Shown here piece after piece: positions 37,560 to 47,340 of a DNA stretch of 64,000 nt (position 1 is the first letter of the stretch; each line of letters starts with the position of its first letter). A program made the translations under genes and the position numbers. The DNA comes from Candidatus Peregrinibacteria bacterium GW2011_GWF2_43_17 (GTDB lineage: Bacteria > Patescibacteriota > Gracilibacteria > UBA1369 > UBA12470). The notes beneath the pieces are model-generated. The model was not told the DNA's origin and did not search any database. It was given only the letters and a program-made list of their open reading frames with translations. The DNA lies in contig LCFW01000006.1 in assembly GCA_000999315.1 (NCBI GenBank), positions 1 through 64,000 on the forward strand. Reading direction: 5' to 3'.

Positions 37560-39047
37560 CTATTTACGAGTTACAAGTTTTGTCCCCAGCGCTGTCGCAA
37601 TCAACACAATTCCCAATCCCGCACCCGTTTGTGGCAAAGTAACACTCTTAACGACACCGATACTTTCATTACCGGCTTCGTCAACGGTTGTGAGCATAAA
37701 CGTGTAAGTTTCGCCCTCCGTCAGACCGTCAACAGTATAAGATGTTGTATCCGGGCCTAGAGATTCAGCATCCCCGTAATTGTCGCCACCATCTTCGCTC
37801 ATGTAGAGCAATTGATCGACAAGATCTCCGGCAGTATTGATGCTGGCTGTCCAACTCAAACCAACACTTGTTGGCAACCCGTCGATAAGTTCTGCAAGGA
37901 AGTTTGTTATATCTTCAGGTGGGATCAAATCGGCGATCTCGATAACTGCGGCGGTGAAGCTGGCGGTTCTGTCGAAATCGTTTACGAGTTCGTTGCCGGA
38001 TAAATCCGTTATGCCGGTGAGTTTCAAAACATAATCTTCGCCAGGAGATTGTTCGCTTGTCGCCAAAACAACCTTTGAAAGATCGACTTCGTCTTGAATT
38101 GCGCTCAAAACCGTTAATGTCACAGTTTCATCATCAGCCAAATAAACCTCAAACGCAGTTTCGAGATTTTCGGCGGGGAGCATAACATTTTCATTAAAAC
38201 CGATTATAATCTCGGTTAAAGTTTCGGCTTCCACGTCGGTAATTTCCGGAGATTCGATGTCGGTTTCCTCTTTGGCAGAAACATCCTCTTCCTCCGGGAG
38301 TTCTTCATCTTCGATTACAGGTTCGGCATCAGTGCCGTCAAAAACGGCGCTATCGATGGTTCCGCTAACCACGGAGTTCCCCGTCTTATCGGTTACGGAA
38401 GTGTTTACGGTGATCATGTAACTTACGCCGGCCTCTTGAGTGCCGGTTGTTACCACCACGACGCTTTCATTTTCATCCGAGGTATAAGCATCCAAAACAT
38501 CCAACTCTTCGTCGTTTTCAAGCCCGACAATCGAGAATGCGCTTGCCGCATCGGTCGGCAAATCAACCTCTTCCGAAAAATTAACTTCCACGGTCATTTT
38601 ATCGGTTGCGACAGCTTCGACTATATAAGGCGCCTCGGTATCGGCAACTTCTTCTTCTTCGATATCAACGGGGGTGGCGGCAGCCTCGTTGCTATAATAA
38701 TCACTTTCGTTTCCGGCGGCATCCAAAGCCGTAACCGCGAAATAATAAGTAACGCCGGCGGTTAATCCGGTCACCTCGTAAGAAATATCGTCATCTGTTT
38801 CAATCGGATCAAAAGTATATTCGCCCGCATCTTCTGAAACACTTTCGATGCCGTAATAAATCTTATATCCCGTCACCAAAACATTGTCCGCAGCCATATC
38901 CCAAGACAAATTCACGCTTTCTTCGCCTGCAAAAGCTTCGAGGTTCTCGACATCGCCCGGAACCTGTACATCCGCATCCGCCGCTCGCACAATAGGTGCA
39001 ATCATAAGGAGAACGAGAGTCGTCAAGAGCGCAATTTTGTTTTTCAT
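37560..39047 (-). CDS. LPQTG-anchored surface protein with FN3 and Ig-like domains
   Basis: 495 residues. A signal peptide (1-22, ending VRA) precedes an FN3 domain (about 30-130), two bacterial Ig-like (SbsA-type) domains (about 143-240 and 268-365) and a second FN3 (about 375-468). The C-terminus has LPQTG (471-475), a hydrophobic stretch and TRK, the sortase sorting signal. Acidic Glu/Asp linkers separate the domains. It is a likely adhesin or wall-linked surface protein. No sortase gene is in the window. Confidence 0.9.
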   Translation of the reverse strand: MKNKIALLTTLVLLMIAPIVRAADADVQVPGDVENLEAFAGEESVNLSWDMAADNVLVTGYKIYYGIESVSEDAGEYTFDPIETDDDISYEVTGLTAGVTYYFAVTALDAAGNESDYYSNEAAATPVDIEEEEVADTEAPYIVEAVATDKMTVEVNFSEEVDLPTDAASAFSIVGLENDEELDVLDAYTSDENESVVVVTTGTQEAGVSYMITVNTSVTDKTGNSVVSGTIDSAVFDGTDAEPVIEDEELPEEEDVSAKEETDIESPEITDVEAETLTEIIIGFNENVMLPAENLETAFEVYLADDETVTLTVLSAIQDEVDLSKVVLATSEQSPGEDYVLKLTGITDLSGNELVNDFDRTASFTAAVIEIADLIPPEDITNFLAELIDGLPTSVGLSWTASINTAGDLVDQLLYMSEDGGDNYGDAESLGPDTTSYTVDGLTEGETYTFMLTTVDEAGNESIGVVKSVTLPQTGAGLGIVLIATALGTKLVTRK

Positions 39048-40871: not shown

Positions 40872-43800
40872 CTACTCCTCACAAAAGCACTCATCGTTTT
40901 CACAATAACACCCTCCGTCATCATATACGGTCGTATCCATAATGGTTACACCTCCATCATCTTCGCAATAACACGTTCCATCCTCGTAACACACTTGGCT
41001 TTCGCATTCCGAAAAATCTTCCACCCCGAACTCGGTGGACGCCACAATATCTCCTTCTATGGTAATAGATCCTCTGTCACCTGACACATTTATAATCTCA
41101 GGATTTTCGTAGTTCTGCACAATTGCCGGCTCGGTTACGAATTCGCCTTTGTTTATGATTCTCGCATAATAATAGAAATTGTCGGTGCAGAAACTGTCGG
41201 TTTCAACAGCATCTTCGCCGTAAACTCCGCATGAAGAGAAGAAGCTCAATTCTTGTCCTAGAGTTTGATAAGGAGGCCTGTAATTATCCGAATAATACCC
41301 CGAAGTTGCCTCGGTGAAGTAAGCCGCGTATCGCAATACCGGCTTAAGTCCGCTTGGCAGATAATCTTTTACGACGTACCCTCCGAAAGTTGATGCGGGC
41401 ATTTTTACGGTGAACTCAACTTTAACCAAATCTCCGGGATTGAAGTCCGTGGTTTCGACTCCGTTTACAAAGTAGGTTCGTCTGATCATCACTCTGTCGT
41501 CGGTTTCGATTTCATCCAAAGAAATATCTTCGGTAAACCTGGTTATTACCATGATTTCGCCGCCTATCGCTCCAAAATCGGCATTCGCAAGCTCGTCCGG
41601 AGTCATGCTGATTTGAAAAACCTCGTTATTCACCAACGTGATTTTTCCTCCATTTAATTTAAAAGTTATTTCGCTTTCGGCGCCAAAATCCAAAACAGCA
41701 GAGGCGTACATGGTTTTCTCGATAGATTGAAGCTCGGTATTCACAGCCTCTCGTCCTTCAAAGGTAGTGACGTAATTCCAGAAATCTTTGTGGCTGTCGT
41801 CGCCAAGTTTTGCCGCCAATAGAGCGGTCAAAGCCGTCCAAGAAAGCTCATCGTCGTCGAGAGCATCCTCGTCCGTGATTTTTACATAACCATCAATCGA
41901 ATCGGAATAATTCCCGACTATATCGAGATACAAATCCGCGGAAGAAGATTTATCGCTCATATTTAAATAAGCTAACGCGGCGTAAATTTTATCTTCAACA
42001 CTCAAATCAAAATTCGTGACGAAATAATCAAGCTCGTTAAGATAAGACTCGTCCAGCGCGGACGCTCCGTAAATCGCAAGAATTTTCTCGGACACGGTGC
42101 CAAAAACAATTTCAGTCATATTGCCGTACTCATCAACGGCAGAACCAGTGTTTAAGACGCTTTCGAAATAATTCAACAGAGCTTCCTCATTCCACAAATC
42201 CGAATTCAACGCGGCAAGTCTCGCCGTGAGTTCAAGTTCACCATCTCCGTAGGGGAGAAGTCTGATTGCGCCGTAATTGTATCCATAATAATCCGAGACT
42301 TGATAAGTCGTTAACGGGAATTCATAAATCGTAATTTCCTCCTCGAAATATTTGTTTAAAAGTTCTCTTGCTGTGGAGTTCGAGGCTTTTTGGTCGGCTC
42401 TGTCTCCGAAATCGGTCGCGGAACTTATCAGAGCGCTGTATATCGGGCCAACTTCGTTATTCATAAAAGTAACATCGGTCCTTTCGGTTTCGGAGCCTTC
42501 AAGGCTCAAATTTTCGCTTAAAATCGAATCCCAAATATGGTCCGCGGACAGATGAGAAGCCACCACGTTTATTTCTTGCAAAACCGCATCGTCGTCCGCA
42601 TCGGTTTCGGCATAGGAAACAACTTCATACAGACCTTCCGCAAGCGTTCCCAAGTCGAAATATATCGGAGAAAATGCGGTCCCTTCTTGTTCTTGCGCAT
42701 AATCCATATCTTCAATTTCAACTCCGGCCGTTATGTCGTCGCCGGGAACAAGTTCATTGCCGTAAACACGGAGAGGAATTATCGGATTGTCTCCGGTCAG
42801 ATATTCGGTGTTCAAAACGGGAAGTACGAACGCCGGCTTGGTTACGATAACATTCGAAGAGTTAAATCCTCCCTTCAAATTTTCGTTTACAACTGTCGCG
42901 ACAACTCTCCACGAGGTTATATTGTCGGGCAAAACGAACTCAACCGCGGCTTCCCCGCCATCGACCTCAACCGTTGCGAACAACGCGGTGTCTTGGAAGT
43001 TTTCTCTCATGCCGCCTTTGTTGTTGTGGACGTAAATATTGTCCGCGAAATAAGTGTGATATTTTTCAACTTCGAAATTGTAAACCTTGGTTGGAGCGTT
43101 AATCGTTTCCGCAGACTCGACCCAAACTTTTTCCCCATCCATATTTATTAAATAATCCCCGACTTTCAGATTTTCAGCCAAACTCCATTTGTCATTCAAG
43201 AAGATCACATGCTCGGGAGTGACTTCAAGCACTCCGCCATTCACCGAAATATATGTGGAAACGACGTGCTCATAAGTTTTCAAAACTTCACCCGTAACAA
43301 GAATCTCGTCGAATTCGTTCGGTCTGGTCTTAATCAAATCTCCCGCGACGATATCTTCGATATTTTTATAAGAACCGTCGCTCATCAAAATTTTGGTGCC
43401 CTCTTTGAAGCATCCGCCCTTACCTTCGTCAGCCGTCATCAAAGCTTGCTCATGTGAAGCGTAAGAATAAATATAACGACTGTCGCTATACCCGTAAAGT
43501 TGCGCCAAGGGATCCATTAACGATTCGTCATAAAGGCTGTAGTAAGCCTCATCCACGAGGTAAACATTAAGGTAACCGTCGGCGTTATTCCCGCTTTTCG
43601 AGTCTGTAATTTCAAACGAAATCTCGGCGGTTTCGCCCGGCTCGTAAGAATCTTTATCCGGTATTATGTCTATATTCAACCTCTCGTTTTCATAATTATA
43701 TTGAACGCTCGTTCCGCCTCCCTCGACAAAATATTTGCCGTCAAAAACTATCGGAGTCACGGTGATACTCGGGATCATCTCTTCTTCAAAAGTGAAAGAA

Positions 43801-46661
43801 TAAGTTGGCGAATCCGAAATTTCATAGCTGTTTATGCCGTCAATCGAAGTAAAGTAGAGATATTTATATGCTACATCGTCTGAAAAAAGGTCAGTGCCGC
43901 TTCCTTCCGCAAGCGTAAGTTCGACATTTTCGGAAACATCATACTTTTTTTCGTAGTCGGTGATGTCGAAATACATATACCTCGAACTTTCATAATAACC
44001 GTATTGGTAAGAAGAGCCGCTTAAATAAACGCTCTCGGTGTAAAAGTTTCCATCGGCATCGTAAATCGTGACGTAAACAGTATAAGAAGAGTTTTCATCC
44101 AGCTCCAAATTGTGCTCGACTTTGCCGCTTGCGTCGGCATAAATCGTTGTCTTGCCGAGCGGCACATCCACATCTTGGTAATAATAATTCGTCTTCACAA
44201 CTTTATCTATATAGTCGTAATAAGTGCCCTCCTCGATTTTCTCTTGGTCGTGCCTGACAATGCTTACCAAAATCTCGGTTTCGGCCGCATTCGCACCGTA
44301 AATCTCATCACCCTGCCAAACCCATCCGTGATCTTCCATCTCTTCAACAACCTTATTGTAATCCACGTATTTGGTCTCGAAAGAAAGTGTATCGTGGTCG
44401 GCTTCGATGTCGGTGGCTCCGATTCTCGATCTTATCATCGTCATTCTTTCTTCTTCCCATATATCCCCCGCCTCTTCGTTTTCAATGTAAAAGTATTGAT
44501 AGTCGGTCGGGAACAATTCGCAATAAGATTTAAAACTCAATTCATCCGTGGAACAATCATAAGGCTCGGCGGTATAAGTTATACTGAATTCTCCGTTTTC
44601 GTCGGTATAGTAAGTGCCTTTCGTCGCATTCACGCCAACATTCGGCGCCGGCGTCCCATCAAAAAATTCCGCTCGAACATTAATATTGGTGCTTTCGCCG
44701 TTCCATAAAACATTTTCTTCAGACTCGATGATAAGTTGATAAGCGGGTTTTATATAATCTTCGACTGAAAAAACAGTATTCATAATAATGTTGTCATCTT
44801 GGACCACCCAAAGTCCGTAACTTCCCGGCAATAATTTCTCAAGTTCGATACTGCCCGAAACAACTCCGCCATTTTCCAAATCAACATCCTCTTTGTAATA
44901 AACCGTCCCGTAATCGGACAACCAATTCATGCTCAAATACCAAGGCGCATCGGTAATGAAAATCTCGGCGGAGCCGTTTACAGCCTTATCGCGACCTTTC
45001 ACAAATCCCCAATAATTCAAAGTGTCGGTTGGGTGATAAGTCCCCCTCTCGGTCTTTAAAAACTGCCAATAATCGGCGGACACATTGTCCACGGATTCGT
45101 CATTCATATAGGCATCTATGCCGTAATAAGCGGCGTGTCCTTCGTAAGAAATTTTCAAATATCCGTACGCGGTAAAATCGCTATTCCCTTGTTGGACAAA
45201 ATCTCCGTATGGCAAATCATCAAAGAAAGCGACACCGTCGGCTCCGGTCTTCATCGAATCCCCGTCCAAAAACTCAACTTCGGCTCCTTCGACAGGTTGC
45301 CCCATTGTCATATCGTTAACCCAAACCAAAGAAGATGTTTCGCTGATCGAGAAATAAGCGCCGATCGGAACAATTTGTATCAAAGCCTGCTTTTTTTGAC
45401 CCGCCACTTCGGCCTCCGCCAAATAATACCCTTCGGAAAGAGTCTGCGGGAATATGATGGCGCGGTCGTAATACCCTTGCATCAATAATACGTCCGAAGG
45501 AGCGATCACCTCGGAAAGCCCGTCTGTCGGGATTTCATAATTGTAAGAAGAGTACCAACTCCAATCCGGCAAAGACATATCCTGTTCTTGCAAAGTTTTC
45601 AAATAATCTTCGCCCGACGCGAATTGATAAACGGTCAACTTTGCCGGAACATCAGCGAGCATATCGCCACCCGATGTTTCCCAATCCCAATAATATCCGG
45701 TCAGATACGGCGTATCGTCCGGCGTGAACTCGTAAACATTATTCGAAAGTCCGAAATTATTGTCGGAATAAACATCCGTCCCAGTTTCAAATTGGAAAGT
45801 GTAGTCGTCCCCCAAAACCTTATCGGTCCCGGACAAAGGCAATCCTTGTTTTACGGTAACCGTATAAATCGTAGCGGCGGTAAGCCCTTCCGGCATAAAC
45901 ACTCCGTATTTTCCGTTCGATTCGAAATCTCCGCTAACGGCGGGCTCTATCGAGAAATAATTTTCAAGATCATCGGCCGAAACACCGTTATAATTGAAAG
46001 TGATTTCAACGCCGTTATTCGTAGGCACTCCGGCGGTTTTATCACCGGGGATCGTGCTTGCGACACGAAACTCATCGGTAACTTGATAAGCCCAAGAATA
46101 TTCGGTTTTGTAAGGGCTGTCTTCGATATTCTGAGCTTCGAGCGTGATTGAATAAATCTCGCCGGCCTCCAAGGGCTCGACGGGTTGTATCGTCACGGTA
46201 TTTGGATCTTGTTGGTCAACAACGACCGGTATTTCCGGCGTAACCACCAGGTTTTCTTCAACATCGCTAGCCGACACTTCACCTTGGCTTTCAAGTACGA
46301 ATCCGCTCGCGCTGTCCACTCCGGAAGAGTCTTCCGAATTCGCGGTCAGAACGTAATAATCGTTGGCTTGCGCGATATCCACAACGGAAATCGGGTTCAA
46401 CAACTTGCTTCCCGGCAAAATCGCAAAAACCAAAACCGTCAACACGAGCACCCCTGCCGTCGCAGGCACAAGCGCTTTACCAAACCATGAAGGTATTTTA
46501 AACGCAAACCGTTCCCGCTTCACGCTATCCGCGACCGGTTTTTCGTTAAGCTCATTCGCCTTGCGAATCAGTTGATTCCGCAAGTCGTGCTTGAAGTCCG
46601 AATTGCCGCGTTTTTTTAACATTTCGGCGAGGGTATTAAGATTTTTTTCTAAGTTATCCAT
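40872..46661 (-). CDS. Giant alpha-2-macroglobulin membrane protein with internal Hint domain
   Basis: 1929 residues. Order: cytoplasmic helical N-terminus (1-63), one TM (64-83), two Ig-like domains (about 105-290), macroglobulin domains (MG2 mark TERGTYHPTDTL), Hint domain (1084-1213), A2M domain (starts MRENFQDTALF, with LPDNITSWR), thioester-like helical domain and a C-terminal domain. The thioester CxEQ is replaced by RADQ (1421-1424), so covalent trapping is not expected. The tail (about 1882-1929) has eight Cys among Asp/Glu. The sigma factor gene lies 19 bp upstream in the same direction, so the cytoplasmic part may be an anti-sigma domain. Confidence 0.9.
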   Translation of the reverse strand: MDNLEKNLNTLAEMLKKRGNSDFKHDLRNQLIRKANELNEKPVADSVKRERFAFKIPSWFGKALVPATAGVLVLTVLVFAILPGSKLLNPISVVDIAQANDYYVLTANSEDSSGVDSASGFVLESQGEVSASDVEENLVVTPEIPVVVDQQDPNTVTIQPVEPLEAGEIYSITLEAQNIEDSPYKTEYSWAYQVTDEFRVASTIPGDKTAGVPTNNGVEITFNYNGVSADDLENYFSIEPAVSGDFESNGKYGVFMPEGLTAATIYTVTVKQGLPLSGTDKVLGDDYTFQFETGTDVYSDNNFGLSNNVYEFTPDDTPYLTGYYWDWETSGGDMLADVPAKLTVYQFASGEDYLKTLQEQDMSLPDWSWYSSYNYEIPTDGLSEVIAPSDVLLMQGYYDRAIIFPQTLSEGYYLAEAEVAGQKKQALIQIVPIGAYFSISETSSLVWVNDMTMGQPVEGAEVEFLDGDSMKTGADGVAFFDDLPYGDFVQQGNSDFTAYGYLKISYEGHAAYYGIDAYMNDESVDNVSADYWQFLKTERGTYHPTDTLNYWGFVKGRDKAVNGSAEIFITDAPWYLSMNWLSDYGTVYYKEDVDLENGGVVSGSIELEKLLPGSYGLWVVQDDNIIMNTVFSVEDYIKPAYQLIIESEENVLWNGESTNINVRAEFFDGTPAPNVGVNATKGTYYTDENGEFSITYTAEPYDCSTDELSFKSYCELFPTDYQYFYIENEEAGDIWEEERMTMIRSRIGATDIEADHDTLSFETKYVDYNKVVEEMEDHGWVWQGDEIYGANAAETEILVSIVRHDQEKIEEGTYYDYIDKVVKTNYYYQDVDVPLGKTTIYADASGKVEHNLELDENSSYTVYVTIYDADGNFYTESVYLSGSSYQYGYYESSRYMYFDITDYEKKYDVSENVELTLAEGSGTDLFSDDVAYKYLYFTSIDGINSYEISDSPTYSFTFEEEMIPSITVTPIVFDGKYFVEGGGTSVQYNYENERLNIDIIPDKDSYEPGETAEISFEITDSKSGNNADGYLNVYLVDEAYYSLYDESLMDPLAQLYGYSDSRYIYSYASHEQALMTADEGKGGCFKEGTKILMSDGSYKNIEDIVAGDLIKTRPNEFDEILVTGEVLKTYEHVVSTYISVNGGVLEVTPEHVIFLNDKWSLAENLKVGDYLINMDGEKVWVESAETINAPTKVYNFEVEKYHTYFADNIYVHNNKGGMRENFQDTALFATVEVDGGEAAVEFVLPDNITSWRVVATVVNENLKGGFNSSNVIVTKPAFVLPVLNTEYLTGDNPIIPLRVYGNELVPGDDITAGVEIEDMDYAQEQEGTAFSPIYFDLGTLAEGLYEVVSYAETDADDDAVLQEINVVASHLSADHIWDSILSENLSLEGSETERTDVTFMNNEVGPIYSALISSATDFGDRADQKASNSTARELLNKYFEEEITIYEFPLTTYQVSDYYGYNYGAIRLLPYGDGELELTARLAALNSDLWNEEALLNYFESVLNTGSAVDEYGNMTEIVFGTVSEKILAIYGASALDESYLNELDYFVTNFDLSVEDKIYAALAYLNMSDKSSSADLYLDIVGNYSDSIDGYVKITDEDALDDDELSWTALTALLAAKLGDDSHKDFWNYVTTFEGREAVNTELQSIEKTMYASAVLDFGAESEITFKLNGGKITLVNNEVFQISMTPDELANADFGAIGGEIMVITRFTEDISLDEIETDDRVMIRRTYFVNGVETTDFNPGDLVKVEFTVKMPASTFGGYVVKDYLPSGLKPVLRYAAYFTEATSGYYSDNYRPPYQTLGQELSFFSSCGVYGEDAVETDSFCTDNFYYYARIINKGEFVTEPAIVQNYENPEIINVSGDRGSITIEGDIVASTEFGVEDFSECESQVCYEDGTCYCEDDGGVTIMDTTVYDDGGCYCENDECFCEE
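43023..43412 (-). other. Hint (intein-like, BIL-type) domain inside the macroglobulin
   Basis: Residues 1084-1213: N-terminal Cys in CFKEGTKILMSDGSYKNIED (block A), LEVTPEHVIFLN (block B, TxxH), VYNFEVEKYHTYFADN (block F) and YVHN (block G). About 130 residues with no endonuclease. The residue after the terminal Asn is Asn, not Cys/Ser/Thr, as in bacterial intein-like domains that cleave or ligate atypically. GKGG and NKGG flank it, between the macroglobulin array and the A2M domain. Confidence 0.88.
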
Positions 46662-46680: not shown

Positions 46681-47340
46681 TTAAAAAAGCGCAGGGAAGC
46701 GAAGCGTTCCCAGCGCAATACATTCAAGGCTCAGTTTTGCGAATGCAAAACACATTACAACAACAGAAGTGACATCGTAAGCCGTCCCACTTGGCGACAC
46801 ACATTTCTTCAAACGTTCCGTTGCGCGATTCAATTTCACTCCCACATTCGTAACCGTTAACTCCAGCGCATCCGCGATCTCTTGATAAGAAAGATTTTCA
46901 AAATACTTTAAGGACAAAATATCTTTATCGTCCTCGCTCAATTTATGAAAAGATTCGTTTAACAACTTCAAATTCGCCAAAGACTCTTTTGCATCTTCGC
47001 CTTCTTTTATATCGTGATCCGGAGCCTCAAACTTCTCTCCGATATCGTGCCATTTTGCCACGCTTGCCTCAAACTCATGCTTGGACTTCTTATAATGTTG
47101 GTTGATCTCGTTTATCGCAACTCGATAAAGCCACGCCGAAAAAGGTTTCCCCATCCAGGTATAAGAACCGATTTTCTCTATTGCGATTAAAAAAGTATCG
47201 GAGGTTAAATCCTCCGCGAGTTGGACGTCTGCGACACGCGTCAGTACGAACCTGTAAATCTGATCGAAATACTTGTCGTAAAGCCGGACAAATTCGGTTT
47301 TGTCGGCTTTTGCAGCCGCGACTAGCTGTTCGTCGCTCAT
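46681..47340 (-). CDS. ECF-type RNA polymerase sigma factor
   Basis: 219 residues. Sigma-2 region (about 18-80: LYDKYFDQIYRFVLTRV, AEDLTSDTFL) and sigma-4 region (about 128-185: LSEDDKDILSLKYFENLSYQ, EIADALELTVTNVGVKLNR) with no sigma-3. The last 30 residues or so (from VVVMCFAFAK) are encoded by a palindromic repeat (46688-46751), so the C-terminus has been extended or replaced by repeat insertion. It heads an operon with the macroglobulin gene (19-bp gap) and diverges from ppdK. Confidence 0.93.
   Translation of the reverse strand: MSDEQLVAAAKADKTEFVRLYDKYFDQIYRFVLTRVADVQLAEDLTSDTFLIAIEKIGSYTWMGKPFSAWLYRVAINEINQHYKKSKHEFEASVAKWHDIGEKFEAPDHDIKEGEDAKESLANLKLLNESFHKLSEDDKDILSLKYFENLSYQEIADALELTVTNVGVKLNRATERLKKCVSPSGTAYDVTSVVVMCFAFAKLSLECIALGTLRFPALF
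46688..46751 (-). repeat. Bipartite palindromic repeat, copy C, in the sigma factor ORF
   Basis: Minus strand: hairpin 1 GTTTTGC-attc-GCAAAAC (46751-46734), AATGTATT (46724-46717), hairpin 2 with GCGC, GGGAACG, CTT, CGCTTCCC, GCGC to 46688. It supplies the last codons of the sigma gene, ending at the TAA. Confidence 0.75.

Follow-up and report, generated by a model that had tools for sequence, protein, structure and literature searches.

The locus described here raises the question of what a Hint (intein-like) domain is doing in the middle of an alpha-2-macroglobulin (A2M). The A2M and complement proteins are the textbook family whose switch is a cut by an outside protease at a single spot, and an initial annotation of the window (the whole stretch of 64,000 nucleotides analysed here, from Candidatus Peregrinibacteria bacterium GW2011_GWF2_43_17) had placed the Hint domain at the linker that joins the bait to the A2M domain. 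The features of the locus are collected in Table 1.

Table 1. Coordinates of the A2M locus in the window, with the basis of each assignment
Feature	Position	Strand	Basis or remark
Alpha-2-macroglobulin, 1929 aa, membrane-anchored at N-terminus	40872..46661	(-)	Pfam A2M, A2M_BRD, bMG10, MG2; no CxEQ
N-terminal cytosolic segment (~59 aa) and transmembrane helix of A2M	46419..46661	(-)	Hydropathy
A2M bait-region domain (MG part), upstream of Hint	43533..43964	(-)	PF07703, E=1.2e-5, residues 900-1043
Disordered bait segment and N-flank, residues 1055-1083	43413..43499	(-)	...EGKGG abuts Cys1; pLDDT, ECAM alignment
A-type BIL (Hint) domain	43023..43412	(-)	Residues 1084-1213; PT-HINT, 2LWY, AF2 model, catalytic residues
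C-flank NKGG (+1 to +4)	43011..43022	(-)	Alignment of relatives
A2M (MG7-type) domain, directly downstream of Hint	42762..42989	(-)	PF00207
ECF-type sigma factor gene, directly upstream of A2M gene	46681..47340	(-)	Sigma70_r2, E=1.5e-13; sigma70-ECF superfamily; conserved neighbour

The Hint domain and its host protein

Translation of the A2M reading frame confirms a 130-aa domain (CFKEGTKIL...NIYVHN) at the expected place. Intein blocks A, B, F and G had been read in it, with Asn as the next residue, and this is borne out: block A (C1), block B (T65-x-x-H68), block F (H119) and block G (H129-N130) are all present and are followed by Asn1214, the catalytic set in protein numbering being Cys1084, Thr1148-x-x-His1151, His1202 and His1212-Asn1213. 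With the whole 1929-aa protein as query, Pfam returns PT-HINT (E=8e-14), and the NCBIfam intein models match the domain weakly. Its best solved relative is the bacterial intein-like (BIL) domain of C. thermocellum (2LWY; E=1.6e-13 over residues 2-130 of 130), which together with the BIL2 domain of the Tetrahymena BUBL locus makes up the nearest solved sequences. An AlphaFold2 model of the domain (pLDDT 87, pTM 0.82, built with 54 homologues) likewise finds 2LWY as its top Foldseek match (E=9e-12, TM 0.86 by target length); the BUBL BILs (6TMM, 6Y75) are second best, with the same fold in another host protein, and any ubiquitin-like ligation would be only putative here. A domain search of the bacterium's own 1.2-Mb genome gives a single match, the copy in the A2M.

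By definition A-type BILs have no nucleophile at the +1 position (PMC4031507), and according to reviews they end in His-Asn. The window domain combines a Hint fold of ~130-140 aa, an N-terminal Cys, a TxxH motif and a C-terminal His-Asn with the absence of Cys, Ser or Thr at +1, thus agreeing with 2LWY in fold, length, Cys1, TxxH, terminal His-Asn and missing +1 nucleophile. The +1 nucleophile of a class 1 intein is found neither here, where the residue is Asn, nor in any of 55 A2M Hints. Judged by its sequence and fold, the domain is a complete A-type BIL, with autocleavage as the predicted activity. Hint homology is also shared with the PT-HINT domains of polymorphic toxins and with an umbrella toxin protein (8W20), but the window protein has no toxin domain and carries its Hint in the middle of an A2M.

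The host protein has MG domains, a bait-region domain and an A2M domain in order (A2M domain at residues 1225-1300, E=3e-9; bMG10, E=4e-6), whereas the internal thioester motif CxEQ is absent both from it and from its clade. Thioester-less bacterial A2Ms are known, so that the A2M homology stands, while covalent trapping by CxEQ does not. From the bait-region domain to the thioester-domain region, the domain order is that of the solved bacterial A2Ms (E. coli YfhM/ECAM, 4RTD and 5A42; Salmonella, 4U48). The window A2M differs from these in the Hint after the bait, in belonging to a clade without CxEQ, in an N-terminal transmembrane anchor with a cytosolic tail, and in a linked sigma factor gene. 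At its C-terminus the protein carries an acidic tail rich in Cys (CYEDGTCYCEDDGG...CYCENDECFCEE, positions 40872-41000) that was not seen in the relatives compared, and downstream of the A2M gene, on the same strand, a surface protein with fibronectin type III and Big_5 domains is encoded (37560-39047).

The position within the A2M fold was located by alignment. A profile of Hint-less relatives matches E. coli A2M with E=5e-40 and maps their KGGGGG linker to FGGDGDELKRGG, right after a stretch of 20 residues for which the cleaved structure shows disorder (residue numbers of E. coli A2M were matched as index plus 22, by our own reading). The location claimed at the outset was therefore right, the site lying just C-terminal to the disordered bait. 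In the alignment to complement C3, the post-linker segment (profile position 205) falls on residue 15 of the C3b alpha' chain, so that the Hint would occupy the slot of the anaphylatoxin domain; in the window protein, the NKGG flank is followed by MRENFQDTA, the counterpart of the channel-threading alpha'NT region in the A2M/C3 profile alignment. As far as these alignments and one to human A2M go, the Hint is inserted between the bait and the channel-plugging segment, which is the C3a slot of C3. Complement C3, C4 and C5 also carry a folded domain in this slot, upstream of alpha'NT, but C3a, which is not related to Hint, is set free by a convertase from outside, not by self-cleavage.

The AlphaFold2 model of the window A2M (1150 residues, pLDDT 81, pTM 0.56) has the Hint folded as a unit of its own, preceded by a disordered bait (pLDDT <50 at model residues 539-560), and in Foldseek it matches A2M and complement proteins. 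The model is closer to activated or cleaved forms than to native ones (ECAM, CD109, A2ML1, human A2M, C5/C5b), with scores of 0.42 and 0.39 versus 0.32 for ECAM and 0.39 versus 0.19 for human A2M; as this is a partial model of low pTM and the Hint-bearing protein alone was modelled, the likeness to activated conformations is suggestive only. Taken together, sequence, fold and alignment support a BIL-type Hint at the junction of bait and A2M domain.

Distribution, junctions and descent

An HMM search for other fusions had been proposed as a check, and it reveals a widespread arrangement, not a singular one: 56 distinct A2M-Hint proteins were collected from many lineages of the symbiont-like Patescibacteria. 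A whole-protein search of 99 relatives gave matches in 48 genomes; the Hint family occurs in 25 of the 99 relative genomes, and in 23 of these 25 it lies inside an A2M. A profile of 23 A2M Hints (38-67% identical to that of the window) was then run on the class, on a 380-genome sample of the phylum and on GTDB contigs. Within the phylum sample, an A2M was found in 47 genomes and a Hint in 23, in 17 of the latter directly before an A2M domain. The public records of the nearest relatives are labelled Candidatus Peregrinibacteria (Patescibacteria), and those of A2M-Hint proteins in general bear the names Peregrini-, Peri-, Parcu-, Magasanik-, Woese-, Collier-, Ames-, Moran-, Doudna-, Kerfeld-, Portnoy- and Dojkabacteria as well as WWE3 (one further record, named Micavibrio, may be mis-binned). 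Hints of Omnitrophota, Elusimicrobia, Thermoplasmata and Proteobacteria found in the same scan lie outside A2Ms, and a scan of viral contigs returned no match. No A2M with a Hint domain is described in the literature searched, which is no proof that none exists.

Two side observations were made among the Hints collected. A Thermoplasmata archaeon record (L134, JAGGZU010000116.1) holds a 2535-aa frame with nine tandem Hints at residues 1096-2431, separated by few residues and mostly followed by T or S. Within the same class as the window, Hint frames at three loci (L100, L101 and L103, in genomes G138, G133 and G141) contain several TGA codons, which fits TGA recoding, and one of these genomes has up to four Hint copies.

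Junctions were compared in 94 distinct A2Ms, of which 55 were assigned a Hint by HMM and a further one (L197) by visual inspection. The residue that follows the Hint in the 55 is Asp (22), Glu (16), Gln (9), Ala (3), Asn (2), Gly (2) or Lys (1), and never Cys, Ser or Thr; the non-A2M Hints of the same search have Lys (18), Thr (8), Ser (4) and others. The C-flank of the A2M Hints is mostly an acidic or amide residue and then KGG, Gly stands at both -1 and -2 of Cys1 in at least 90% of members, and most members have KGG on both sides of the domain. In Hint-less relatives, this place is taken only by a linker of the xKGGGGG type, for example EAGEKGGGGG. A general target-site duplication was considered and rejected, since the longest stretch shared by the DNA flanks of 55 loci averages 6.1, against 5.3 in codon-shuffled controls. 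One locus (L223) does have an exact 15-bp direct repeat, GCGGAAAAAGGCGGC, flanking its Hint (peptide AEKGG on each side), but this is not general among the relatives.

Mutated catalytic residues in relatives had been named in the initial annotation as grounds for doubt. None were found: Cys1, Thr65, His68, His129 and Asn130 are kept in all 56 A2M Hints, and His119 in 49. This conservation is not merely a search bias, as the phylum and class sets were collected by profile and not by pattern. Where dS is measurable, the dN/dS of the Hint is 0.03-0.16, with similar values in the neighbouring domains.

A tree of the A2Ms was built from the bait-region and A2M domains, with mixed support (24 of 90 branches open). 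One clade of 53 proteins, in which no CxEQ was found, has 41 with and 12 without a Hint; another of 40, containing CxEQ-bearing proteins, has a Hint in 15. Several Hint-less subclades lie among Hint-bearing ones, and the Hint label changes eight times on this tree, at least four of these changes falling on strongly supported branches. In the tree of the Hints themselves, 54 A2M Hints share one branch (SH-aLRT 99) with one non-A2M Hint. The Hints of L197 and L201 fall elsewhere, although they sit in the same Gly-rich linker and have a VHN end followed by D or E; on the evidence of these trees, a second, unrelated Hint lineage entered the same linker, and the site has been filled at least twice. 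That the Hint has been kept in use, lost in places and captured more than once at this site speaks for a role in the A2M, while the Hint-less subclades among Hint-bearing ones mean that the A2M can work without it.

A linked ECF sigma factor

The sigma factor gene next to the A2M gene is a recurrent neighbour, and its linkage follows the N-terminus of the A2M: a cytosolic N-terminal segment of at least 36 aa is present in all 26 sigma-linked A2Ms and in 5 of the 27 without the sigma gene (Fisher p=2e-10, a value that ignores relatedness among the A2Ms). A tie between the sigma gene and the Hint was rejected, as the linked A2Ms include both Hint-bearing (20) and Hint-less (6) proteins. The window A2M has a cytosolic N-terminal domain encoded beside an ECF sigma gene, as an anti-sigma factor would, and matches no known anti-sigma family in Pfam. 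This suggests that the A2M may act as a membrane anti-sigma factor with a protease trap as its ectodomain, independently of the Hint. As a membrane anti-sigma factor that cleaves itself, RsgI of C. thermocellum is reportedly a loose precedent; a literature search for A2Ms with ECF sigma or anti-sigma factors gave no relevant result.

Proposed self-processing, its rivals and what it would mean

How, then, might the Hint act on the trap? We put somewhat better than even chances on autoprocessing, in which the Hint parts the bait from the plug and thereby matures or self-triggers the A2M. On this view an intact A-type BIL has come to sit within the Gly-rich linker that joins the bait to the channel-threading alpha'NT segment; after folding, Cys1084 and Gly1083 would form a thioester by an N-S acyl shift, and Asn1213 would cyclise. 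The Hint would mainly be cut at one of its ends or at both, because the +1 residue is not a nucleophile, and cleavage products dominate in A-type BILs (PMC4031507). Such cleavage, which may come with folding or upon a signal, would part bait and alpha'NT plug at the spot that a protease cuts to set off the conformational switch in known A2Ms. Mutagenesis of human A2M supports this switch, the cleaved bait retracting from the central channel that is threaded by the segment just after it (PMC9352918). The result would be an A2M matured into two chains or made self-triggering, and the Hint would play the part of C3a in C3 as a folded insert that switches the molecule on being released. We infer the cleavage itself, its timing and the switching of the A2M; a point against the scheme is that Hints which do nothing but splice, or which cleave at one end only, keep the catalytic residues as well.

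The main rival to autoprocessing is splicing, in which the Hint would excise itself, a nearly neutral passenger, with the flanks joined by the A-type BIL route into a linker of the type ...GKGG-NKGG.... The initial annotation had called splicing unlikely on account of the Asn at +1, and the ordinary class 1 route is indeed excluded; however, A-type BILs without a +1 nucleophile can still ligate their flanks, the freed amino group attacking the N-terminal thioester (PMC4031507). Given the KGG on both sides of most Hints, the spliced linker would moreover resemble the xKGGGGG of the Hint-less relatives. Against this, the A-type BILs studied give mainly cleavage products, a splicing passenger should favour Cys, Ser or Thr at +1 (seen in none of the 55), and this 130-aa domain has no homing endonuclease with which a passenger could be kept alive. 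Overall we regard splicing as unlikely.

More doubtful still is a second covalent warhead, in which the thioester between Gly-Gly and Cys1 would persist until an amine, on an attacking protease or on the surface of a neighbouring cell, reacts with it; the N-terminal half of the A2M would then be attached to its target through a Gly-Gly end, much as by the A2M thioester or the tail of ubiquitin. The Gly-Gly before Cys1 in nearly all members, the BUBL BIL2 among the close structural relatives and the absence of the classical CxEQ from the window A2M and its clade would all fit, but the glycines may be just the ancestral linker. A simple replacement of CxEQ by the Hint thioester is weakened by the two clades of the A2M tree, as Hint and CxEQ coexist in one of them and the Hint-less members of the window clade lack CxEQ as well. 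A composite of trigger and warhead is a long shot: the Gly-Gly thioester that terminates the bait would open the trap from within and could pass the N-terminal half onto a target amine, the state of the membrane-anchored half being read by the linked ECF sigma factor.

An inert spacer, that is, a Hint no longer active, whose remaining use in the bait would be that of a folded plug or a binding module, is very improbable. Hint-less relatives do exist, but the terminal Asn and Cys1, for which there is no structural need, are invariant in all 56, and in the window's nearest pair the Hint is conserved above the adjacent A2M domains (67% versus 42-48%). Chance similarity or an assembly artefact has next to no chance of being right, being refuted by the Pfam score, the BIL-fold model and the recurrence of this junction across dozens of independent assemblies.

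The initial annotation is borne out in its observation and right in direction, though it fell short in scope: the locus presents a known kind of domain at a site that is new for it, conserved and mechanistically charged. Reviews place BILs in hypervariable regions of non-conserved proteins, unlike the A2M Hint, whose site in a family of protease traps is fixed and conserved. If it is true that a conserved self-cleaving domain sits at the trigger spot of an A2M, it would arm or mature the trap in a new way, with C3a as an independent counterpart, and A-type BILs, whose biological role is so far unclear, would gain a fixed and testable job. The comparison suggests that the Patescibacteria trap may process itself where other traps await an outside protease, which offers a lead on how these ultra-small bacteria deal with the proteases of their hosts or prey.
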